64,000 nucleotides of DNA from Sphingobacterium composti (lineage in GTDB: Bacteria > Bacteroidota > Bacteroidia > Sphingobacteriales > Sphingobacteriaceae): positions 1 to 64,000 of the forward strand of contig NZ_WUQZ01000011.1 of NCBI RefSeq assembly GCF_009829075.1, given 5' to 3'. The notes beneath the pieces were generated by a model. The model ran no database searches, was not told the DNA's origin, and saw only the letters and a list, made by a program, of their open reading frames with translations. Positions 31,371 to 42,588 of the stretch are shown here, one piece after another. Position 1 is the first letter of the stretch. The number at the start of each line of letters is the position of its first letter. The translations under genes and the position numbers were made by a program.

Positions 31371-31387
31371 GTAGCCCGTAGGGGAAT
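31371..31387. repeat. Left 17-bp direct repeat (attL core, tRNA-Glu 3'-end remnant)
   Basis: GTAGCCCGTAGGGGAAT, identical to the tRNA-Glu 3' end at 42516-42532. The next bases (AACACC) no longer match the tRNA (CGAACC). Confidence 0.85.
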
Positions 31388-31443
31388 AACACCTACTAAA
31401 CATTAATCTCTTTATCAGATTTTTACAAACTTGCCTTTTTCCA

Positions 31444-31461
31444 ACTCACCGAATTACTCAC
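31444..31461. repeat. Left copy of the 18-bp motif inside the island end
   Basis: ACTCACCGAATTACTCAC: two ACTCAC units 12 bp apart. It differs by one base from the copy at 42396-42413 and is in the same orientation. Position fits a recombinase arm-type site. Confidence 0.6.
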
Positions 31462-31623
31462 TGGTTTGACATACATTTTAGCTGCAATTGCTTATTGAGC
31501 AAAGATAACATAAATCGAATAGATTGGCCCTGCAAATTAATCGACTTCTAGAAAACAGGATTTTTTAATAATATGGAATTTGGTGATAGAAGTTACTAAG
31601 TGAATCACTGTATAAGAAAATCT

Positions 31624-31651
31624 AAAACCCCATCGAATCCGACAGGGTTTT
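31624..31651 (-). terminator. Terminator of the PUL operon
   Basis: AAAACCC / GGGTTTT with an internally pairing loop. On the minus strand it ends in GGGGTTTTAG, 14 bp after the last PUL gene. Confidence 0.6.
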
Positions 31652-31664
31652 AACAAGTTTATTT

Positions 31665-32762
31665 TTACGGATTAGCGGATCTTGTGAGCGACCGAATAAC
31701 CTGCAATTCAGCTTCCTGATAGGCTGTTCCATCTTTTCGGAAAATATCATGAAACCATAATGTAGGTTCGGACATATGAGGAAGTGGTGTGTCCCACGCA
31801 AATATAGTATTTGTTTTACCAGATACGAGTCCCCAATTTATAGCACCTATATTTTCTTGCATAAGCAGAGGCATGATGTCTTGAAATGTACTTTTCTGTG
31901 TTCTGGCCATATATTCTGTACATATTAGCGGCCGTCCATATTGCTTGAGAGAATCAATCAATTTCTTGTGTTCGTTTAAAGGTTCATAAGTATGATAGGT
32001 GATGATATCTGAATTTTCTAATTGAAAAATGTTCAATTCATGTAGGTTTAGATCCCAGATACCTGCTGTGATAGGCTGCGATGGATTTATGGATCTTGCC
32101 CAGCTAAAAATCTTTTGCAGTAAAAAAAGACTTTTCTCGTTGTAACGATAAGGACCTGATCCGCCTGGCTCATTGTACAGATCCCACATTAGAATTCTTT
32201 CATCGTTTTTGAAGGTGATGAGTATATCTTTTACATATTCCTCTAATTTTGGTAGAACAGCGGTGGTATCGCCTTTGTAGTACAGGTCTCCAGGATCTCT
32301 TAACCAACCCGAATTGTGTACTCCTGGTTTAGGACTGGGTTGCTTACCAACTTTGAAATCCGGGTTCCAACAATCGTCAAAGAATACGAACATGGAGGAT
32401 ATCTTGTGCTTGTGGGATATATCTAGATATTGATTGATACGTTTCTTAAAGCCATCTTTGTCAGATTCCCATAATGCATGATGTAAAAAGACGCGCATGG
32501 TATTCATACCGATAGCTGCAGCCCACCCTAATTCACGATCTATGGTGACGGGGTCAAAGGTATCTGCTTGCCACATCTCCAACTGATTGATGGCATTGCT
32601 AGGTATATAATTGGCACCACTCAACCAGCCTTGTTGGTCATACCATTCGTTGGATTGCTTCTCCGTCCAGCGATCGCGGGGCTTCTGCTCTGTGGAGCAA
32701 GAAAGCACCAAAACCGCCAAAATCAATAACAAGCTACTTGCTGATATTATTTGTTTCGCCAT
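31665..32762 (-). CDS. Clan GH-A glycoside hydrolase lipoprotein (GH5-like), last PUL gene
   Basis: 365 aa. Signal peptide with lipobox VLSC (Cys22). The TIM-barrel has the clan-A catalytic pair: acid/base Glu198 in LYNEPG and nucleophile Glu283 in CTEYMA. NTMRVFLHHALWE and FVFFDDCWNP line the N-terminal part of the barrel. It retains configuration and is anchored to the outer membrane or periplasmic face. Substrate cannot be read from the sequence; annotation pipelines often label such proteins cellulase-family or xylanase-like. Last gene of the sigma-FecR-SusC-SusD operon, so it should act on the imported glycan. Confidence 0.82.
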   Translation of the reverse strand: MAKQIISASSLLLILAVLVLSCSTEQKPRDRWTEKQSNEWYDQQGWLSGANYIPSNAINQLEMWQADTFDPVTIDRELGWAAAIGMNTMRVFLHHALWESDKDGFKKRINQYLDISHKHKISSMFVFFDDCWNPDFKVGKQPSPKPGVHNSGWLRDPGDLYYKGDTTAVLPKLEEYVKDILITFKNDERILMWDLYNEPGGSGPYRYNEKSLFLLQKIFSWARSINPSQPITAGIWDLNLHELNIFQLENSDIITYHTYEPLNEHKKLIDSLKQYGRPLICTEYMARTQKSTFQDIMPLLMQENIGAINWGLVSGKTNTIFAWDTPLPHMSEPTLWFHDIFRKDGTAYQEAELQVIRSLTRSANP

Positions 32763-32855
32763 GATACTCTTCGTTTTGTTTTTGTTAAAAATATTTGTTT
32801 TATTTTATACTATATGGTGCTACCCTTATCGGGCTACACCATATAGGTTGATCCA

Positions 32856-34394
32856 TTAATCCAAGAAAACGGTTGGTTCCGTTGTTATCCCATAATCAGC
32901 GAGTCGGTAATGGCGGTCTTTGGATGGTGTTATCATAAATGATCCATTACCCAACAGATCATTGATAACCGGATAATAATTAGTAGCCGTTTTCGGGCGG
33001 AATACTAATACACAATAGTCTCCCCTAACTACATAGCCCATTTCAAGCGTGGCATTATTCAAAGAGCCGATGAGCTTGCGATCTATAACCTTCAACGCAC
33101 CTCCTTCAAACTTCATATCCAATTCGATGGCCTCATTATCTGATAGATCGATCCGCAACTTGCTTCTATAGGGTGATACGACCAGCGCTCCAACCACATG
33201 CCAATCAGTGTCGAAATGGTTAAAGTTGGTAAAAATCAACGCATCAGACGACATATTTCTTACTTTTTGCAGCAGAGACAGATCATAAGGACTTACCAGA
33301 TGTGGATTGTGTACCGTACTGTTAACAAATGTATAAAAGTTGCTCACATCATATCCAACTATCGCCGTGTTTATATCAAACACTTTAAATCCGGTATTCC
33401 GCGCCGTAATCATCGCATTTGATATTTTTAGCTGCAGTGGTGTAGTAAAAGCATTATCCCGGTATATAAATGCAGTACCGAAATTATCCAAATAAGAATA
33501 ATAGATATTCTGGTCCAATACCAACGTCGGTCCATGATTACCTACGATCATAATACCTTTATCGACCGTATCGTAGTAAATCTGGTTAAATACAAAGAAA
33601 CCACCACAATCGATACGTATCCCTTCTGTTTGCCGGTAATTGTCTCCTCCTATATCCGTACCTCCCGTCGTATTTTTTGAAAGAATATGTACATTGTTGA
33701 TAACATGACCTGGCGATTTGGTAACAATAGCCCATTTTGTAGAATAAATGAATGTATTTGAAATTTTTACATCTGCACACGATTCATCGATATAGATACC
33801 GTAGATATCCTCATTAGAAGACATTCCCTGGATTGTTATATTATCAATCTTTGTATCACAACTACCCGTTCCCAAAAAATCATCGGTTACGTAAATACGC
33901 AGATGCGTATCCCGTCCTCTCACCAAACTCATATTTTTTAATGAAACAAGCTGCTTCAGTCCATTTACGACAATACCATTATCTGAGTTATAGCAATCAA
34001 AAACGCCACCTTCCACATACGAAAATCGCCGGTGACTGCGGTCTACGATTGATACGTCGGAAAATCCGATTTTCAACAATGCTTCCAATTGCCCATCACT
34101 TTTAACATAAGCGCTAGGGTCTAATTTCAGGTTGACACTTTTGGTGTAATCCAAGGGTAAAACCATGGGCTCTGTGAGGTTATACACACCCGCTGGAAAG
34201 TATAATGTTTTACCGTACGATCTACGCACCAATGCATTTAGTTCCGATCCGATAGGCGAACCATCATTTTTCACACCATGTTCAATCACCGATACAAAAT
34301 CTTCGGTAGTTTCGTAATTATTTCCCATCACATTTTCCTTTTTACACCCCAGAAAAAGGATAATCACAAATATATAGGCTAACTTTGTCGACAT
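32856..34394 (-). CDS. Right-handed beta-helix lipoprotein, pectate-lyase-3-like
   Basis: 512 aa. Lipobox LFLGC (Cys about 17), then an N-terminal cap as in pectate lyase superfamily 3 / GH55 and tail-spike proteins (EHGVKNDGSPIGSELNALV, KTLYFPAGVYNLTEPMVLP). A long run of beta-helix coils follows (INNVHILSKNTTGG, KISNAMITARNTGF). The last 120 residues form a separate beta domain. The fold suggests a polysaccharide lyase or hydrolase, or a glycan-binding protein; no catalytic set could be assigned. It lies 56 bp after susD. Confidence 0.75.
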   Translation of the reverse strand: MSTKLAYIFVIILFLGCKKENVMGNNYETTEDFVSVIEHGVKNDGSPIGSELNALVRRSYGKTLYFPAGVYNLTEPMVLPLDYTKSVNLKLDPSAYVKSDGQLEALLKIGFSDVSIVDRSHRRFSYVEGGVFDCYNSDNGIVVNGLKQLVSLKNMSLVRGRDTHLRIYVTDDFLGTGSCDTKIDNITIQGMSSNEDIYGIYIDESCADVKISNTFIYSTKWAIVTKSPGHVINNVHILSKNTTGGTDIGGDNYRQTEGIRIDCGGFFVFNQIYYDTVDKGIMIVGNHGPTLVLDQNIYYSYLDNFGTAFIYRDNAFTTPLQLKISNAMITARNTGFKVFDINTAIVGYDVSNFYTFVNSTVHNPHLVSPYDLSLLQKVRNMSSDALIFTNFNHFDTDWHVVGALVVSPYRSKLRIDLSDNEAIELDMKFEGGALKVIDRKLIGSLNNATLEMGYVVRGDYCVLVFRPKTATNYYPVINDLLGNGSFMITPSKDRHYRLADYGITTEPTVFLD

Positions 34395-34449
34395 GTTATC
34401 TATTCATTATATTTTAATCTTCTGTTAATTTTAGGTTCTTGACCTCGAA

Positions 34450-36153
34450 TTAATTCCATCCTGGATTTTGTGACAAGACACCATCTGTTTTGTCAATTTC
34501 CAGTTGTGGTATAGGGAATAAATAGTTTCGTGCAGGGTCAAATCTCCGCTGGTGATATATCGGGTAGGTAAACTCACCATTTGCTGATACTTCCACTTTC
34601 CTTACCGGGCCATTGTCCGTAATTTCTGCAATCTTCCACCGTCTTACGTCCCAAAAACGTTGGTTTTCCACCGCAAACTCTATCCGCCGTTCATGCCTTA
34701 TCCGCTCACGCATCTGATTTTTGTCCAATCCGGTTGGCAAACCCGGCATGTCCGAACGGCTACGGATTTCGTTTACCGCATCATACACACGGTTATCCGG
34801 TGCAGATAGCGACTCATTAAGTGCTTCTGCGTAATTCAGATACAATTCTCCCAACCGGAACAACACAAATTTTTTAGGTACAAAACCAGAGTTGGTTGTC
34901 AAGTTATAGGATTCGGTACAGTACTTTCGCCAGTAGTAGAGTATACGGGGTCTATCCTCATTAAAATCTCTTCCTCCACGTCTGATATCCACTGCCCTTC
35001 CTTTCCATTGCGCACCATGGTACAGTATCGTTTGATAAAACCGGGGATCGCGATGGGCGTACGGTTCTTGCGGGTTATAGTCCGATTCCGGATTCACCAA
35101 CTGCTTATTATTTGCATCATATCCTAAAACCGGCGATACGCCCTTATCTGTTTCATATGCATCTACAAACTCCTGGATAGGGGCCTCCACGTGCCACCCT
35201 CCGTAACCCAGAGAATGTGTATAATGTTCCCAGCCCCAGAAGTTATCTTCGAAAGAAAAATCCACACTATGCATAATCACTTCGGGATTATCCAACTGCA
35301 AGAAGATACGCTCGTAAGCCTGCAAACCATTGCTTTCACCTCTGGAAAGTGTGAAATTATTGTTTTCCGCGAACTGCATGGCAGTTTCTGTAGCTTGTAA
35401 CGCGGCCTGCCAACGGGCAACATCATTGTTGGGGTTGAACAGTGGCGAAGCATAGTAAAGCAATACACGCGACAGCAACGCATGGCAGAAGGTGGCATTC
35501 ATCCGTCCATTGTTGGCTGCATCCAGCCTTGCAGGCAGAATTGCCACTGCTTTAGCCAAATCTTCTTTAATGAGATCAATAACGTTCCCAATAGGTTCCC
35601 GTGGATAAAAAGTCTCTTCCCCACCAGGATCTATTACATGGGTGATGATAGGTACCTCCCCCCACATCTTGAAGAGCTGGAAATAAAAAAGAGCACGGAG
35701 CGCATACGCCTCGCCCAGGAGCCGTTCTTTTATACGCACGGTGGTGCTCCCTTCCTGCGCTTCGTTTGGAATCAGGTGATTATTTTCAATAAACATATTG
35801 ATTCGGCGGATGGAACGATAGTACTGCGCCCAGCGTGATTGCATTGGGAATGCCGACGGGTTCCAGTCGTTATAATTAAACTTTGTTGTTCCCAACACTG
35901 CCTCATAGAGCATGCTCACACCTTCGTCTGTACCTGCACCCAGATTGAATAAAGTGTTACCTGGAGATTCGATATAAATTGACGGGACATCACGGTAAGC
36001 ATTGGTTAAGAAGGCTTCCGCATTTGCAAGACTGCTGAAAACTTCTTCTTTTCCGATAAAATCACTTGGAGCCCGCTCTAAGAAATCCTTGCTGCACGAG
36101 GTAAAAAGGAAAAGCATCCATATGGGCAAATATATTATTGTATTTCGTATCAT
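34450..36153 (-). CDS. SusD/RagB-family outer-membrane glycan-binding lipoprotein
   Basis: 567 aa. Lipobox LFTSC, then CSKDFLERAPSDFIGKEEVFSS, the common SusD opening. The TPR-like scaffold (AYRDVP..., GEAYALRALFYFQLFKMWGEVPII) and the C-terminal block (RIRHERRIEFAVENQRFWDVRRWK) are diagnostic. It forms the lid of the SusC channel and binds the glycan. Its ATG is 10 bp after the susC stop. The sugar specificity is unknown. Confidence 0.95.
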   Translation of the reverse strand: MIRNTIIYLPIWMLFLFTSCSKDFLERAPSDFIGKEEVFSSLANAEAFLTNAYRDVPSIYIESPGNTLFNLGAGTDEGVSMLYEAVLGTTKFNYNDWNPSAFPMQSRWAQYYRSIRRINMFIENNHLIPNEAQEGSTTVRIKERLLGEAYALRALFYFQLFKMWGEVPIITHVIDPGGEETFYPREPIGNVIDLIKEDLAKAVAILPARLDAANNGRMNATFCHALLSRVLLYYASPLFNPNNDVARWQAALQATETAMQFAENNNFTLSRGESNGLQAYERIFLQLDNPEVIMHSVDFSFEDNFWGWEHYTHSLGYGGWHVEAPIQEFVDAYETDKGVSPVLGYDANNKQLVNPESDYNPQEPYAHRDPRFYQTILYHGAQWKGRAVDIRRGGRDFNEDRPRILYYWRKYCTESYNLTTNSGFVPKKFVLFRLGELYLNYAEALNESLSAPDNRVYDAVNEIRSRSDMPGLPTGLDKNQMRERIRHERRIEFAVENQRFWDVRRWKIAEITDNGPVRKVEVSANGEFTYPIYHQRRFDPARNYLFPIPQLEIDKTDGVLSQNPGWN

Positions 36154-36163
36154 GGTTACTAGC

Positions 36164-39100
36164 TTAAAATTTTACATTCAATCCGATATTGAATACCCTT
36201 TGTATCGGGTAGGGTATAGCCGTGCCGCCCCATGTTTCAGGATCCCGGTCTTTAATCTTCAAACGATCGAAAACCAGCAAGTTTTGCCCGTTCAAGAATA
36301 ATCGTCCGGATGTAAGGTTGGCAAGCGCTGTCCATCTGTTGGGGATCGTAAAACCGATTTCCATGTTTCGCAGTTTCAGGTAATCCGTGTTTTCCAAGTA
36401 GAATGTGGAGCTTACTTTGTTGTTTTCTGCATTCGATGCCACAACGGCTTCGGCATTCTCTCGATTTTCGTCTGTCCAGCGTTTCAATTGTATCGGGTCG
36501 AGATCCCTCGGTTGCCTAAAAATTGTACCACCTGCGGCACCGTTAAACAACATACTGATATCCAAATTTTTATAATTCATTCCTAAGGAGATTCCCCCCA
36601 TTAGGTTCGGGATATTAAAAACGCGGATGGGCACCCGATCATAGGTATTAACTTCCCCATCGCCGTTTGTGTCAGCATATTTCAGATAACCCGGCAATAC
36701 AGTGGACGAAAAACGCTGCACAGGACTATTGGCGATGTCCTCCTCGCTTGAAAAAAAGCCTATAGCCTCGTATCCCAGCTCATACCCGATCGGGTATCCT
36801 CTCAAACCCTGATAGGGGAACATCGGAGTGGGCTGATCGTTTCGGATGATCTTATTCTTGGTGTACGTGAGGTTTAAGTTTGTAAAAAAGCCCACATCGC
36901 CCCATTGCTGCTTTAAGCGTATTTCACCGTCTATTCCTCTATTCACCACTTCCCCACTGTTCCGCGGTGCTAAATTCACTATACCAATATAATCCGGTAC
37001 AGTCCCCGGTGTTGTGAGGATATTGGTACGCCGTTCGTGGAAAACATCCAACGATAGGAATAATGTCTCTCCATCAAACAGTCCTGCTTCAAAACCGATG
37101 TTCGATTTTTTCGCTCGTTCCCAGGTAATGTAGCTATTGCCAACCCTGTTTTCATGGTATCCCGGTGCCCAGCGGAATGCATTGCCGAACGGGTAGCCGT
37201 CGCTTGGGCCAAAATCTGAAATATACAACCAGCGCTGACCGCCAATATTATCATTTCCTACTACACCGTACGATCCGCGCCATTTTAGGTATTTCACCAC
37301 ATCCTGGCCTGCCATGAAACGCTCGTTACTCATGAGCCAAGCTAACGAAAAACTAGGGAAAAAACCGTAGCGCTTATCGGGCATAAAATTTTCGGACCCG
37401 TTAAATCCAAGGTTAGTTTCGAGAAACAGTTTCTGGTTATATCCATATACAAACCGACCGCTCACTCCTTGATACGCATAAGGCAATTCATCATTCAATA
37501 CACGGAGGGTTCGATTAGCCAACAACTGTGCCGTAATGGCATTTCTGCCTACTTGTTTATCGTAGTTCAGCCTTACATCAAAGTAATTGGATCGCTCTAT
37601 GCTGCTCGAGCCCCACGTGGACAACCTGGAATATACTTGATATTGCTGATAAAGGGGATTTTTATGTATATCCAACCCACGGTACCAATAGGAATCGAAG
37701 TTCTGCGTCCGCCCGGTATGCTTGTAGTTATTATTCTCAAAGCTAAAATACGATTGGATGGTAAGCCCATCTGTGATGAAATCGAGATCATGCTTCGCCG
37801 ACAACGTACCATACAATACATTTGTAAACCCTTGGTAATAACCCGCTCGGGTTATCATTCCCAATGGATTAGGCGTATATGGGTGTAGCACTTCGCTACC
37901 ATTCCCAAAACTTCCATCCGGATTATATATAGGCATGGCAAAACGTGGCAGCGTTGATATGGTGCCAAAGGTATTGGCAAAACCTTGGGCTGGTCCTACA
38001 CGTTCTTCGAGCCGTCCAGCAAGGTCAATTTGCACGGCTAGCCTTTTTGTAGCATCGATATCAATATTGGAACGGAAATTATAACGATCAAATTTAGGTG
38101 TCTGCCGGTAATTTTCTTTAAATACATCACCATGATTCAACAACGTACTTTGTTTCAGATAACTTCCCGATGCAAAATATCGCACCTTGTTGGACGATCC
38201 CGATATATTCACATTATACTGATTTTGATATGCTTGATCTCGCAATATTTCATCCAACCAGTTCACATCGGGATAAAGAAAAGGTTCAGAACCATCACGA
38301 ATACTCTGCAACGCAGCTTCCGTAAACCGTGGGGTCAGCCCCATATTTTTATCATTCTCATTGTAAAATAACGCCGCATCGTATAGGTTTATCATTTCGG
38401 GAAGCCTAATAGGCTGCATTGCTGAAACCTGGCCTGTAAAGTCAATCACATTCTTTTGGTTTGCCGCCCCACGTTTGGTTGTAACAACGATGACACCGTT
38501 GGCGCCCTGTATACCATACAAAGCAGACGATGATGCGTCTTTGAGTATCGCTACCGATTCGACTTCGTTAGGGTCGATCTGGCTAAAACTCCCCATCCCT
38601 CTCGGCAAACCGTCTACCACAATGAGCGGTGCTGTATTGGAACTGTAACTCCCTATACCTCGGATATACAGGTTCGCTGCATCGGCCCCCGGTTCGCCGG
38701 TACTTTGCACACTGATCAGTCCAGGCAAGCGACCGGCAAGCGCATTGTTGAGGTTAGCTACCGGGCTTTGCTTCAATTCCTTTGTCTCTATACGTGACAT
38801 CGCTCCCGTAACCGATCTTTTGGTCTGGCGGATGTTCATCCCTACCACCACAACCTCGTCCAAAGTACTTTCCGGTTCAAGTTTGATATCGATAAAGTCT
38901 AGTTTCCCGACAGCTATCTCCCAAGTTTTATACCCGATAAAAGATACCTGCAAAACTGAGCGGTTATCACAATCCTCCAACGTGAATAATCCTTGTTCAT
39001 CCGTGGTTGTACCATTTGTTGTCCCTTTTTCCACAACGCTTGCACCGGCGATGGCCTCTCCGCTTTCATCTGTCACTTTTCCCTTGACTTGTCGCAGTTG

Positions 39101-39496
39101 CTTCTTAATTTCTGCCGCAACACTAGATTCACTCCGCTTCACAACATAAATCTGCCTATCGGAGACAAAATAGGTGTTCCCTATAGGCGTCAGGATTTCG
39201 TCTAAAACATCAGCCACCTTCCGGTTATCGGTATTCACCGTTACCTTTCGGTTACCATCAAGAACATTGTCCTGATAGAAAAAAACATATTCCGTTTTTT
39301 TCTCTATTTCCGAAAGGACCTGCTGTACCGTTTTGTTCTTTAGATGTAGGGATACTCTTGCCGTCTGAGAGTAATTGTCATTGGAATAGCATATACCAAT
39401 CCCCAAAGCAAAACATAAAACAAACAACTTCATAATTCGACATGTTCTTCTAATACCTAGCCGAAAAGAGCTAAGTTTCTCAAAATTATCATACAT
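36164..39496 (-). CDS. SusC/RagA-family TonB-linked outer-membrane transporter with STN domain
   Basis: 1110 aa. After a signal peptide comes an STN domain (about 45-125, TVQQVLSEIEKKTEYVFFYQ). A carboxypeptidase-regulatory-like domain (about 135-215, VKGKVTDESGEAIAGASVVE) and a plug (RETKRSVTGAMSRIETKEL-type, with the SusC box GADAANLYIRGIGSYSSNTAP) follow. The beta barrel ends in KF. The STN domain signals substrate binding to a FecR anti-sigma factor, which is encoded upstream, so this is the sensor as well as the importer. Its 335-bp upstream gap must hold its promoter. Length is typical. Confidence 0.95.
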   Translation of the reverse strand: MYDNFEKLSSFRLGIRRTCRIMKLFVLCFALGIGICYSNDNYSQTARVSLHLKNKTVQQVLSEIEKKTEYVFFYQDNVLDGNRKVTVNTDNRKVADVLDEILTPIGNTYFVSDRQIYVVKRSESSVAAEIKKQLRQVKGKVTDESGEAIAGASVVEKGTTNGTTTDEQGLFTLEDCDNRSVLQVSFIGYKTWEIAVGKLDFIDIKLEPESTLDEVVVVGMNIRQTKRSVTGAMSRIETKELKQSPVANLNNALAGRLPGLISVQSTGEPGADAANLYIRGIGSYSSNTAPLIVVDGLPRGMGSFSQIDPNEVESVAILKDASSSALYGIQGANGVIVVTTKRGAANQKNVIDFTGQVSAMQPIRLPEMINLYDAALFYNENDKNMGLTPRFTEAALQSIRDGSEPFLYPDVNWLDEILRDQAYQNQYNVNISGSSNKVRYFASGSYLKQSTLLNHGDVFKENYRQTPKFDRYNFRSNIDIDATKRLAVQIDLAGRLEERVGPAQGFANTFGTISTLPRFAMPIYNPDGSFGNGSEVLHPYTPNPLGMITRAGYYQGFTNVLYGTLSAKHDLDFITDGLTIQSYFSFENNNYKHTGRTQNFDSYWYRGLDIHKNPLYQQYQVYSRLSTWGSSSIERSNYFDVRLNYDKQVGRNAITAQLLANRTLRVLNDELPYAYQGVSGRFVYGYNQKLFLETNLGFNGSENFMPDKRYGFFPSFSLAWLMSNERFMAGQDVVKYLKWRGSYGVVGNDNIGGQRWLYISDFGPSDGYPFGNAFRWAPGYHENRVGNSYITWERAKKSNIGFEAGLFDGETLFLSLDVFHERRTNILTTPGTVPDYIGIVNLAPRNSGEVVNRGIDGEIRLKQQWGDVGFFTNLNLTYTKNKIIRNDQPTPMFPYQGLRGYPIGYELGYEAIGFFSSEEDIANSPVQRFSSTVLPGYLKYADTNGDGEVNTYDRVPIRVFNIPNLMGGISLGMNYKNLDISMLFNGAAGGTIFRQPRDLDPIQLKRWTDENRENAEAVVASNAENNKVSSTFYLENTDYLKLRNMEIGFTIPNRWTALANLTSGRLFLNGQNLLVFDRLKIKDRDPETWGGTAIPYPIQRVFNIGLNVKF

Positions 39497-39831
39497 TTGT
39501 AATGGTTTATACGTTTATAACTATAACTAAATTCTTAACCGGATGACATTGGCCTGTTGTCCGGTTTCTTGTTTTGTAGGTTTACATTTATCTCATAGGC
39601 ACTTCTTTTTGAATTAGGTTTTTCGTTTATTTGGTCTCATTCGTTAGTTAAAACTATGTACTTTCATTGCAAGACTTTCAGTTTCTATAAATATCACTCA
39701 AGAATAATTGTATCTTGATCTTCGTTATCAGGTGCTCTATTCTCCAAATATTAAAATTTACATTTTTATACATAGAGAAAGAATTTCATTCTTTCATCAA
39801 GCAAACCTATGGACTTTCAGTTCATAGTGGT
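39497..39831. other. Regulatory gap between susC and fecR
   Basis: 335 bp without a gene. It should carry the sigma-factor-dependent promoter of susC, but no TAnnTTTG box was found on the minus strand. It contains two hairpins near fecR (listed) and nothing else recognised. Confidence 0.5.
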
Positions 39832-39833
39832 TT
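39777..39833 (-). terminator. Two hairpins at the end of fecR
   Basis: GAAAGAAT / ATTCTTTC (39777-39795) and an imperfect AAACCTATGGACT / AGTTCATAGTGGTTT stem (39803-39833) that overlaps the fecR stop. They may separate the sigma-fecR transcript from susC. Confidence 0.45.
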
Positions 39834-41016
39834 AGTAATAAATGGTATAATCACCATCCGCATTTTTCAGATAATTGATCGGTAACGCACGGGTCAAGTC
39901 GGTCAGCAAGATATCTAAATTGTCTTTAAGATCCAGTTTACCAGAACATTTTAGATGAGCAGCTTGATCATCACATACGATTTTCGCACCATAATAACGT
40001 TCCAGCCGTTTAATGATATCGCCTAGGGCTTCGCTTTCAAAACGGTATAGCCCTTGCTTCCATAATGCGTACATGCTCGCATCCACCGTCTTAATAGACG
40101 GCGTACCTTCTGTATTGGAATACAATTGGTTTGGTTTCAATACGACATCCTTCTTATGTGTGGCAGAAGCAATATTAACGGAACCCGATAGTAGTGCGAC
40201 ATTGTTTATGTGATCGACTTCGTATGCAGAAACATTAAACTTTGTCCCTAACACCGATATATCCATCCGCTTCGTTTTGACAATAAATGGACGGTTCTTA
40301 TCTTCAGCAACTTCAATATAAATTTCACCATTGACATAAATCTCCCGGTTTTCTTTACTGAATTGGTTCGGGTAGACTAGCTTAGTGCCCGCATTGACCC
40401 ATGCTTTTGTACCATCCGAGAAGATAATAGTCGAACGCTTGCCATGGGGTGTGATTAATTGATTATAAGAAGTCATCACTTTCTCTTGAAGAATGATATT
40501 ATCATCCGCCACGATATCATCGACTCCATATTGAACAGACGATTCTGTATTGTGCAATGTAACAACCTGATCCTCTCCTAGAACAAGCCGTGTATCTACA
40601 GCATTAAAATCCACTTCCGGTAATGCTTGTGCATACGTTGTAATATCCCTCTGCTGAACATCTTCACTTTTTTTCCACAAAAAAGGCAATATAGCCACCA
40701 TAATACAAGCAGCAACGGCAATCGCTCGCAACATGATATACCTTGCATTTTTCTTTTTCTTTTGGCCAATCACATACTGTAGCTGTTCTCTACCTTCAGA
40801 AATTTCAGCCGGTGTCATGCTAAATTTGTTAAATCGAACACTGGTTTTATATAGCGAGATGGCTTCCTCTATGATAGGCGCTAGATCCGGATGCCGATTG
40901 ATAACATTCTTCCAGAAAAGGGCATCCTCTTCGCTCTTTAGAAGCTGCCAACGCAGAAAATCTTCGTCCTTAAGAAGGTCTATAACTGTATATCCTCGAA
41001 ATTGGTTATCGCGCAT
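39832..41016 (-). CDS. FecR-family anti-sigma factor
   Basis: 394 aa. The N-terminal cytoplasmic domain binds sigma. One membrane helix lies at about 95-111 (RYIMLRAIAVAACIMVAILPF). The periplasmic FecR domain has LITPHGKRSTIIFSDGTKAWVNAGTKLVYP and RPFIVKTKRMDISVLGTKFNVSAY. The C-terminal DUF4974-type domain folds like STN (LGDIIKRLERYYGAKIV). It passes the SusC STN signal across the inner membrane to release the ECF sigma factor encoded upstream. Gap to the sigma gene is 117 bp. Confidence 0.94.
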   Translation of the reverse strand: MRDNQFRGYTVIDLLKDEDFLRWQLLKSEEDALFWKNVINRHPDLAPIIEEAISLYKTSVRFNKFSMTPAEISEGREQLQYVIGQKKKKNARYIMLRAIAVAACIMVAILPFLWKKSEDVQQRDITTYAQALPEVDFNAVDTRLVLGEDQVVTLHNTESSVQYGVDDIVADDNIILQEKVMTSYNQLITPHGKRSTIIFSDGTKAWVNAGTKLVYPNQFSKENREIYVNGEIYIEVAEDKNRPFIVKTKRMDISVLGTKFNVSAYEVDHINNVALLSGSVNIASATHKKDVVLKPNQLYSNTEGTPSIKTVDASMYALWKQGLYRFESEALGDIIKRLERYYGAKIVCDDQAAHLKCSGKLDLKDNLDILLTDLTRALPINYLKNADGDYTIYY

Positions 41017-41133
41017 TTATCTTGTTTGCTTTCCGTATATACAAACGAGTTATTCTTTTATACCCACTTTTTGGGAAAAATATTTTTTTAGCTATAAACA
41101 TGACATCCCTAAGGGATGTGTATGTTTGATACA

Positions 41134-41739
41134 TCAAGAACAGAAATGTTTCAATAGGTATATCAACAGCAATTGCTCCTCGCTCCTCAATCTTTTTAAT
41201 GACCGCGAAATTAGTTTTCGTGCACCATGCTGTGTTGTCCCCAATATATCTGCAATTTCTGCATACTCCAGTTCTTGTATGAAACGTAGATAGATCGCTT
41301 CCTTTTGGCGAGCGGTCAATTTAGTAAGAAGGTTATCTATCTTTTGCTGTATGATAATGCGATCTTCTTCATTAATAATCGAATCCAAGACGGTCGTCGA
41401 AATAGAAAAATTTAAGACGTCGGCAGTGAATGGTGCTGCGGTACTAACTCTTTTGGAGGCGTAGATATTGTATAGTTTATTTTTAAGGGATTTGAGCAGA
41501 AAAAATTTTAAATGATCAATAGAAGAAAAATTCTTTGCACCAGCATGAATATTGACAAATACATCCTGGACAGCATCTCTCACGACATCCTTATCACCGC
41601 CAAGACTTATCCCGTATGCATACAGATCATTTATAAAAACGGTATAAAAGTATGAAAAAGCCTCGTTACTTCCCTTTAGGAATTCCATAAGCATGGTATT
41701 CTCATATTCATCATAAGTGCGAGCGGTCGTATTGGTCAT
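41134..41739 (-). CDS. ECF RNA polymerase sigma factor of the island PUL
   Basis: 201 aa from ATG 41739. Region 2 (MEFLKGSNEAFSYFYTVFIN, DAVQDVFVNI) and region 4 (LTARQKEAIYLRFIQELEYAEIADILGTTQHGARKLISRSL) are typical of the Bacteroidota sigma-FecR class. It should drive the susC promoter when SusC binds its ligand. The start at 41760 is TTG and lies next to a promoter box, so ATG 41739 is preferred. It is the rightmost gene of the island. Confidence 0.92.
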   Translation of the reverse strand: MTNTTARTYDEYENTMLMEFLKGSNEAFSYFYTVFINDLYAYGISLGGDKDVVRDAVQDVFVNIHAGAKNFSSIDHLKFFLLKSLKNKLYNIYASKRVSTAAPFTADVLNFSISTTVLDSIINEEDRIIIQQKIDNLLTKLTARQKEAIYLRFIQELEYAEIADILGTTQHGARKLISRSLKRLRSEEQLLLIYLLKHFCS

Positions 41740-41761
41740 AAATATCGAAATTCTATTCAAA

Positions 41762-41769
41762 CAAAGATA
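41762..41769 (-). promoter_or_regulatory. -7 element of the island sigma gene
   Basis: Minus strand TATCTTTG, exact TAnnTTTG, 22 bp upstream of ATG 41739. Confidence 0.5.
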
Positions 41770-41987
41770 GTCGATTTTTTTAATCTCGAAAAAAGAAGTG
41801 TCGAGGGAGGTTTGCTTTGTAAACGTTTCAGAGCAAGCGGAAGTTGGGCAGAGCCCTACTTTGCTTGCCGTATCCGCTGCAAACGGGGTTTTGGGTATCC
41901 TCCGTTGATACCCTTATGGCCTAACGGCATGGTAGAGGTCGGTTTCGGTATACTCTTGGGTATACCGGACAGACATTCCCAGATATA

Positions 41988-42027
41988 CCGATATGTCATG
42001 ATGCCGATATGTCATGATGCCGATATA
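41988..42027. repeat. 16-bp tandem repeat, about 2.5 copies
   Basis: CCGATATGTCATGATG at 41988-42003 and 42004-42019, both exact, then a partial CCGATATA. Confidence 0.8.
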
Positions 42028-42369
42028 CATATAGATGTATATACCATGTTTTTAACGACGTCTGTTCTGTATCTTTTTAGTAAATTTGGTCTATGTCGTC
42101 AAAATACTTTAAATACCGCACAGCATTCCAACTTAAGGTACATCCTTATGATCTGGGGGTATTGACCGGTCTGAAAAGAGGCAGTGACGACAACCATTTC
42201 CTTTTGAAAGTCTATAAACTCGTTTTGGTTTCTTCAGATAGAAGAGTAAGGAATAATTCGTACTCATGATTTTAACCATTTAAGTGTAACAAACTTAGCC
42301 TTGCAGCTTAACGAAATCAAGATGTTCAATATCTGAACAAGTTGTCAATCAAAAAATTAACCCCTTTCC

Positions 42370-42414
42370 AGTGAGTCATGTATTTTGAAAAAGCGACTCA
42401 CCGAATGACTCACT
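42370..42414. repeat. 10-bp inverted repeat containing the right 18-bp motif
   Basis: AGTGAGTCAT (42370-42379) and ATGACTCACT (42405-42414). The second arm overlaps ACTCACCGAATGACTCAC (42396-42413), which matches the left-end motif at 17 of 18 bases. Confidence 0.65.
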
Positions 42415-42461
42415 TTTTTATTGGGAATAATCGAAAGTTATTGTAGATACTGAAAAACAAA

Positions 42462-42494
42462 AAAGCTTGCAATCATTTGATTTGCAAGCTTTTG
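42462..42494 (-). terminator. Hairpin now following tRNA-Glu, supplied by the island
   Basis: AAAAGCTTGCAA / TTGCAAGCTTTT, 12-bp perfect stem with a 9-nt loop, 22 bp 3' of the tRNA. Since it lies inside the island, the element brings its own terminator for the tRNA it interrupts. Confidence 0.75.
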
Positions 42495-42515
42495 AATGTT
42501 TTGATCTCAAGATCT

Positions 42516-42532
42516 GTAGCCCGTAGGGGAAT
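42516..42532. repeat. Right 17-bp direct repeat (attR core within tRNA-Glu)
   Basis: GTAGCCCGTAGGGGAAT. It covers the tRNA T-arm 3' side, acceptor strand and discriminator base plus one flanking base. Identical to 31371-31387. Confidence 0.85.
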
Positions 42533-42588
42533 CGAACCCCTGTTTCCAGAATGAAAATCTGGCGTCCTAACCCCTAGACGAACGGGCC
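42517..42588 (-). tRNA. tRNA-Glu (anticodon TTC)
   Basis: 72 nt without an encoded CCA. Acceptor GGCCCGT / ACGGGCT, D arm GTCT...GGAC, anticodon stem CCAGA / TCTGG around the loop TTTTCAT (anticodon TTC), T arm AGGGG / CCCCT with loop TTCGATT. Positions 8-9 are TC, as in E. coli tRNA-Glu. The gene is complete even though its 3' end is the integration site. A consensus promoter lies upstream. Confidence 0.96.

Follow-up and report, generated by a model that had tools for sequence, protein, structure and literature searches.

Hairpins and gene remnants beside a tRNA-Glu gene

The window, a stretch of 64,000 nucleotides from a contig of Sphingobacterium composti, holds a dense cluster of inverted repeats close to a tRNA-Glu(ttc) gene. 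The last 17 nucleotides of this gene (42516-42532) recur at 31371-31387 as an exact direct repeat (17/17), and the two att sites enclose an island of 11.2 kb. The features of the island and of the cluster are listed in Table 1. Pfam searches with three of the cargo proteins returned Cellulase and Sigma70_r4_2 in two of them, and the names SusC, SusD and FecR given to other cargo genes are presumptive. The SusC/SusD-type cluster within the att repeats (31371-42532) has a higher GC content, reaching 0.47. This, together with its place inside the repeats, indicates that it was probably brought in by a mobilizable island. An integrase (as a remnant), att repeats and a tRNA target, the features by which an integrative mobilizable element is recognised, are all found here.

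Table 1 Features of the island and of the hairpin cluster in the window.
Feature	Position	Strand	Sequence or remark
attL, proposed left island border	31371-31387		17-bp copy of the tRNA-Glu 3' end
Cargo between the att sites	31665-41760	-	GH5-like, 512-aa protein without Pfam match, SusD-like, SusC-like, FecR-like, ECF-type sigma factor
Conserved part of the probable degenerate MOB_B origin of transfer	41831-41967	+	from the GAGC edge to the end of H4
H1, near-invariant hairpin	41833-41868	+	GCAAGCGGAAGTTGGGCAGAGCCCTACTTTGCTTGC; proposed relaxase recognition hairpin
H2, variable imperfect hairpin	41868-41886	+	between the first two hairpins; fifth hairpin of the cluster
H3, palindrome	41893-41913	+	GGGTATCC-TCCGT-TGATACCC; two proposed BfmA half-sites
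H4, palindrome	41946-41967	+	CGGTATACTCTTGGGTATACCG; two more proposed half-sites, same kind as in H3
16-bp tandem repeat	41988-42026	+	CCGATATGTCATGATG; private to the window copy
AT-rich hairpin (fourth of the preliminary description)	42023-42042	+	
Promoter motif just before orfA	42081-42088	+	TAAATTTG
orfA, first 43 codons	42093-42221	+	88% amino acid identity to L042:9737 (S. cellulitidis)
Island tyrosine integrase, first 15 codons	42223-42267	-	MSTNYSLLFYLKKPK; fused to the orfA remnant by internal deletion
tRNA-Glu(ttc)	42516-42588	-	3' end 42516-42532 = attR

A preliminary description made from the letters of this DNA had pointed out four hairpins and a 16-bp tandem repeat. All four hairpins lie where it had placed them, and the tandem repeat is present in 2.4 copies, with the top score among the 26 tandem-repeat rows of the window. 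On the plus strand, positions 41800-42060 are predicted to fold with -92.5 kcal/mol, compared to -74.5 ± 4.9 kcal/mol for dinucleotide shuffles (z -3.7, 0/200); folding of the minus strand gave a z of -3.1 (0/200 shuffles). Perfect 7-bp inverted repeats have five starts in 41831-42042, against 0.12 in mononucleotide shuffles (0/1000). The same description had stated that no gene explains the cluster, which holds for the most part, although a gene remnant of 43 codons starts at 42093. It is preceded by TAAATTTG, which we take to be a Bacteroidetes-type promoter motif of the consensus TAnnTTTG.

The remnant is the start of orfA, in S. cellulitidis the first gene of the mobilization operon (L042:9737-10489, 251 aa). 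Neither Pfam nor NCBIfam gave a match over cut-off for OrfA, and the name RteC was dropped, as no family matched at cut-off. In S. cellulitidis, the order is hairpin element, orfA, HTH gene, a fourth gene, bfmA, mobB, cargo, integrase and tRNA-Glu, with the intact gene set beside tRNA-Glu in both loci inspected (L042 and L043); the 40 kb searched there yielded no left att repeat. The window presents the element, the orfA remnant, the reversed start of the integrase, the integrase upstream region and the tRNA, the integrase-side flank through the tRNA being 88% identical to L048. Compared with the S. cellulitidis order, the window has thus lost everything between orfA and the integrase start.

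Searches of the source genome G000 (3.6 Mb, 82 contigs, 99.4% complete) with NF041495, PF18976 and NF041200 gave no match to MobB or BfmA, i.e., neither the cognate relaxase nor the accessory protein that would mark an origin of transfer as functional in this genome was detected. In one of the relaxase searches of G000 the control genomes were matchless too, and the same model matches the relaxase of L042. The window copy of H3 has begun decaying, its innermost pair being lost (CTCCGTTG as compared with CTCCGGGG in S. cellulitidis).

A different fusion at the same tRNA-Glu is seen in S. alimentarium (G166, L053, around 9616), where the element runs into the integrase gene at about its codon 178. 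It is an independent internal deletion.

Copies in Sphingobacteriaceae and their neighbouring genes

The preliminary description had counted on a comparison with relatives to tell the cluster from ordinary intergenic filler without copies or conservation, and both copies and conservation were found. BLASTN of 41790-42070 against 399 genomes of the Sphingobacteriaceae (E ≤ 0.01) gave matches in 148 of them, which typically begin at 41831 and end near 41911 or earlier. The best-matching relative, Sphingobacterium cellulitidis (G232), matched over 41831-42011 at 86% identity, and conservation in relatives spans 41831 to about 41967. We collected 121 distinct copies, which correspond to 119 places because L063_4998- and L137_5046- are opposite-strand matches of the same place. 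A tandem duplication that is near-perfect and has a unit of at least 12 is seen in this region only in the window copy (1/121). The AT-rich fourth hairpin is unaligned in the nearest relative, and some perfect 7-bp hairpin occupies its region in 20 of the 121 copies.

A 26-nt pattern of H1, searched in 84,980 species genomes, occurred in 86 stretches. Among the 80 stretches listed, 77 are named Pedobacter, Mucilaginibacter, Sphingobacterium, Parapedobacter, Pelobium or Sphingobacteriales, and the other three belong to metagenome-assembled genomes (MAGs) labelled Dyadobacter, Bacteroidetes and Neobacillus. The contig of the Neobacillus-labelled MAG (L237) carries the element and a BfmA gene, and its label is probably a binning error. 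Viral contigs contained no exact H1 pattern; by DNA similarity, the window stretch matched neither plasmids nor phages and the S. cellulitidis element matched no plasmid. On these grounds a phage or plasmid relic was rejected. A covariance model (R1) built on 60 copies, the window being one of these 60 rows, scores the window at 132 bits. Among 395 genomes across the phylum it found matches in five, each belonging to the window's family; seven candidates per listed genome were scored, which makes absence elsewhere in the phylum a weak result.

The copies stand in a constant relation to mobilization genes. Downstream and on the same strand, bfmA was found in 90 of the 121 copies, a relaxase gene in 88 and both in 88, while neither gene was found upstream (to 3.5 kb) or in reversed orientation (-3.5 to +5 kb) in any of the 121. 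The first recognised downstream gene in 90 contexts was bfmA (62), the HTH gene (18), orfA (7) or the fourth operon gene (3). In 25 contexts, equal to 23 of the 119 places and including the window, neither bfmA nor mobB was present despite at least 3.5 kb of downstream sequence; six further contexts were too short to judge. The S. cellulitidis relaxase is a MobB protein (NF041495, 6e-79; PF18976, 1e-95), and its accessory protein belongs to BfmA/BtgA (NF041200, 2.5e-12). In intact elements, the hairpins thus lie beside both a relaxase and an accessory gene.

This arrangement also bears on a REP- or MITE-like dispersed repeat, or chance filler, as the nature of the cluster. Relatives do carry one to three copies per genome, but the source genome has one full copy, and 88 of the 121 copies in relatives precede mobilization genes in one orientation. 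The whole 341-nt query matched only itself in the source genome, the seven other matches measuring 17-26 nt; the many dispersed copies within one genome that define a REP-like repeat, an option of the preliminary description, are not seen. We give this reading practically no credence.

The association was also approached from the relaxase side. Searched alone, the relaxase family matched in 71 of 251 genomes (taken to be G000-G250), and 30 loci were fetched. The covariance model matched in 25 of these, all at E ≤ 2e-10; L160 and L162 gave no match because the locus ends before the known element, and L149, L150 and L173 were without a match as well. Element and relaxase occurred together in 57 genomes, the element only in 16 (of the 73 bearing it), the relaxase only in 14 and neither in 164 (Fisher p 2.5e-28, kinship being ignored). 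Some of the 14 relaxase-only genomes do carry the element by the covariance model (L157 of G145 and L164 of G174).

Co-variation of the half-sites with BfmA

For a closer view of the hairpins, an alignment (A1) of 60 copies was chosen from 76 non-redundant ones; the 16 omitted copies looked decayed or had no mobilization genes, so that high pairing is favoured. Paired cells amount to 87.8% as compared with 76.9% in shuffled alignments, and 183 cells show double changes versus 45.5 after shuffling (0/500, the shuffles ignoring kinship). The co-variation that the preliminary description had proposed to look for is therefore present in the stems. Free prediction by RNAalifold returned H3, H4 and parts of H1 and H2, whereas the full pairing of H1 and H2 was assigned by hand, that of H1 after a single-sequence fold.

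H1, and not the palindromes H3 and H4, is the most conserved part: its sequence is nearly fixed, double changes occur in 6 of its 14 pairs, and 89.6% of its cells pair. H2 is paired in 68.9% of cells and has double changes in all six pairs. In H3 all eight pairs vary and 97.5% of cells are paired, the five core pairs (columns 69-73) being Watson-Crick in 300 of 300 cells without a single wobble; H4 is paired in 89.4% of cells. The H3 7-mer matched within the H4 region of its own copy at 5.92 of 7 positions, compared to 5.26 ± 0.08 after permutation (0/5000, kinship ignored). By this sequence comparison H3 and H4 share one half-site and vary together, the H4 half-sites standing in reverse order in some lineages of A1. 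Unlike the variable half-sites, the H3 spacer (columns 75-79) is nearly fixed, reading TCCGG or TCCAG in most copies, and may serve a separate function.

Co-varying stems and strong hairpins, with fold z-scores of -3.7 and -3.1 on the two strands, are also what a structured RNA, a leader or a small RNA encoded beside the mobilization genes, would show. A precedent exists in SGI1, whose self-encoded small RNA is needed for mobilization according to the accessible part of PMC9299015. Moreover, 61 bfmA-first and 22 HTH-first contexts have no TAnnTTTG motif between element and gene, and a transcript could therefore include the element there. Against this, such a motif follows the element in five of six orfA-first contexts, the H3 core is free of wobble pairs, and a half-site shared by H3 and H4 is needed by a DNA-binding protein and not by RNA folding. 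Rfam gave no match over 41831-42042 at E ≤ 5, which assigns the stretch to no known RNA family. With the tracking of the half-site by a BfmA residue described below added, we regard the RNA leader that the preliminary description had offered as quite improbable. H1 to H4 look like DNA-level binding sites more than RNA.

An association scan was run over 174 BfmA columns and six half-site columns. Residue 6 of BfmA (the R in KSVRY), which lies in the proposed ribbon strand, and column 70 scored 0.55, the next best pair 0.28; the best scores for the relaxase and the fourth gene were 0.25 and 0.22. The HTH protein was rejected as half-site reader, since its top score of 0.81 (G57 with column 71) stems from one copy, L084. 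With L084 left out, no HTH score exceeds 0.22, and BfmA residue 6 with column 70 stays at 0.54 (next 0.34). Among the 88 copies considered, one of which was without the motif, an R at residue 6 goes with T (70 copies) or G (3) and a K with A (9) or C (5), with no exception in 87. Of 23 further copies, 13 could be scored and all agreed with this rule (12 R, 1 K). Seven of the 13, including the one with K, are 93-99% similar to copies of the first set, and the six distinct ones all combine R with T, so the further copies add little on K.

On the relaxase tree, which was built quickly and leaves 27 of its 84 inner branches open, residue 6 and the half-site base each change six times. The four independent pairs on well-supported branches all agree (sign test p 0.125), and the best tree yields six pairs. 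This suggests that one BfmA residue, R or K, tracks which transfer site BfmA reads.

The predicted structure of BfmA (mean pLDDT 81, pTM 0.37) has an extended segment at 24-29, helices at 30-42 and 47-61 and then a long helix, with no strand assigned in the monomer. Weak sequence matches were to RHH_1, NikA-like and TraY families; RHH_1 matched the L229 protein at E 0.097, below cut-off, and 3 of 26 members. Sequence comparison with solved structures gave no convincing relative. Foldseek with the model returned no match at E ≤ 0.001, its best seven PDB matches including ParG, Arc and CopG at a weak E of 0.7-4.4. On this modest evidence, BfmA is taken as a probable ribbon-helix-helix accessory protein.

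A probable degenerate origin of transfer and its counterparts

A related hairpin was looked for on 14 stretches of Bacteroidota MOB_B plasmids picked for variety, five of 10 listed (112 records) and nine of 40 listed (104 records). An AGCRAG-hairpin-CTYGC arrangement at most 500 nt upstream of bfmA or btgA occurs in eight of the 14 (L265, L267, L268 and L270-L274), compared to 12 hits in 1400 shuffles and 8 in 464 other windows, by a criterion that was fixed after the first five plasmids had been seen. By the same criterion it is absent from six plasmids with bfmA and relaxase (L266, L269 and L275-L278). The eight are not independent, as L272 and L273 share one hairpin and the other Bacteroidales ones are related. 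With filters off, the covariance model had its best hits upstream of bfmA in L265 (E 6e-4), L267 (0.014) and L268 (0.11). L265 gave two more hits, at E 0.12 and, on the opposite strand, at 0.34; no hit was obtained in L266 or L269.

L270 is annotated with btgA and btgB, and its hairpin (AGCAAGAGGAAACCGGGCTTTACCC...) aligns with H1. With L270 among the eight, the element has a hairpin homologous to that of btgA/btgB plasmids. In L270, the similar AGCAAG...CTTGC hairpin lies 130-170 nt before btgA. Binding of BtgA to the oriT of the Bacteroides plasmid pBFTM10 was reportedly described in 1998. That oriT is a site beside btgA and btgB, as the present element is beside bfmA and mobB, but the element sits on chromosomal islands of Sphingobacteriaceae and not on plasmids, and its H3/H4 half-sites differ.

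Palindromes directly upstream of the first gene could also be no more than an operator or promoter through which BfmA or the HTH protein autoregulates the mobilization operon, the oriT lying at another place. In RA3, MobC controls its own expression from a site of this kind, as stated in the portion of PMC4175270 available to us, and the element does precede different genes of the operon. Against this stand the stronger conservation of H1 than of the palindromes and the H1-type hairpin in common with the btgA/btgB plasmid L270. BtgA is, moreover, stated to bind the oriT of pBFTM10 in the accessible text of PMC10865816. We therefore think an operator alone improbable.

The cluster is best explained as the degenerate oriT of a MOB_B / BfmA-BtgA integrative mobilizable element at tRNA-Glu, whose mobility genes were lost by internal deletion; we put the probability of this reading at roughly 0.88. 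The origin of transfer had been one option of the preliminary description, and position, conservation and protein co-variation, all read from sequence, strongly support it. In relatives with an intact element, the relaxase MobB would recognise H1, which is near-invariant, and nick at or near it. BfmA, judged by co-variation, would bind the half-sites of H3 and H4, help relaxosome assembly and possibly act as a repressor of its own operon. Between lineages the half-sites change along with BfmA, with H1 nearly fixed. The site in the window is an orphan, as no MobB or BfmA gene was found in its genome.

More tentatively, MOB_B origins might form transfer-compatibility groups, in which H1 is fixed and the half-sites switch with the BfmA residue, R reading T/G and K reading A/C, and orphan origins might stay docking sites for mobilization in trans by an incoming MOB_B element with matching BfmA. 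If this rather doubtful extension were true, such an element could mobilize the neighbouring polysaccharide-use genes or the chromosome from an orphan origin. Apart from this extension, the co-variation leads to the prediction that one BfmA residue sets one half-site base.

The same logic applies to the oriT subtypes of staphylococcal pWBG749 plasmids, for which the available part of PMC8136818 rests on experiment where we have co-variation. There, the ribbon-helix-helix accessory protein SmpO is encoded between oriT and relaxase and has two binding sites that differ between oriT subtypes. A single substitution (F7K) switches its specificity, which has switched more than once in evolution (PMC8136818, same part). 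The SmpO system belongs to a different phylum, and its sites are GNNNNC motifs.

Apart from oriT sequence, the island can be compared with Tn4399, Tn4555, NBU1 and NBU2 of Bacteroides and Tn6031 of Sphingobacterium, which in the accessible text of PMC5704250 are likewise integrative mobilizable elements with a tyrosine integrase, some of them at tRNA 3' ends. Unlike the MOB_B relaxase here, Tn4399, Tn4555, NBU1 and NBU2 have MobP relaxases, and tRNA-Glu, the target of the present island, is not among the sites given for these elements in that text. Among the literature matches listed, a scope mostly outside subscription journals, there was no paper on oriT in Sphingobacteriaceae. The covariance model offers a searchable description of the probable origin of transfer of MOB_B elements in this family and links the Sphingobacteriaceae site to the btgA/btgB plasmids of Bacteroides. 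The island itself suggests how a mobilizable element, by later losing its transfer genes, left a SusC/SusD-type cluster stranded at a tRNA gene.

In the Sphingobacterium copies L011, L012, L020, L021 and L037, repeats like TGTAAACCTATTTCAGGAC, which presumably resemble transposon-end repeats, lie immediately left of GAGCAAGC. At the corresponding place, about 41819-41832, the window reads TGTAAACGTTTCAG.
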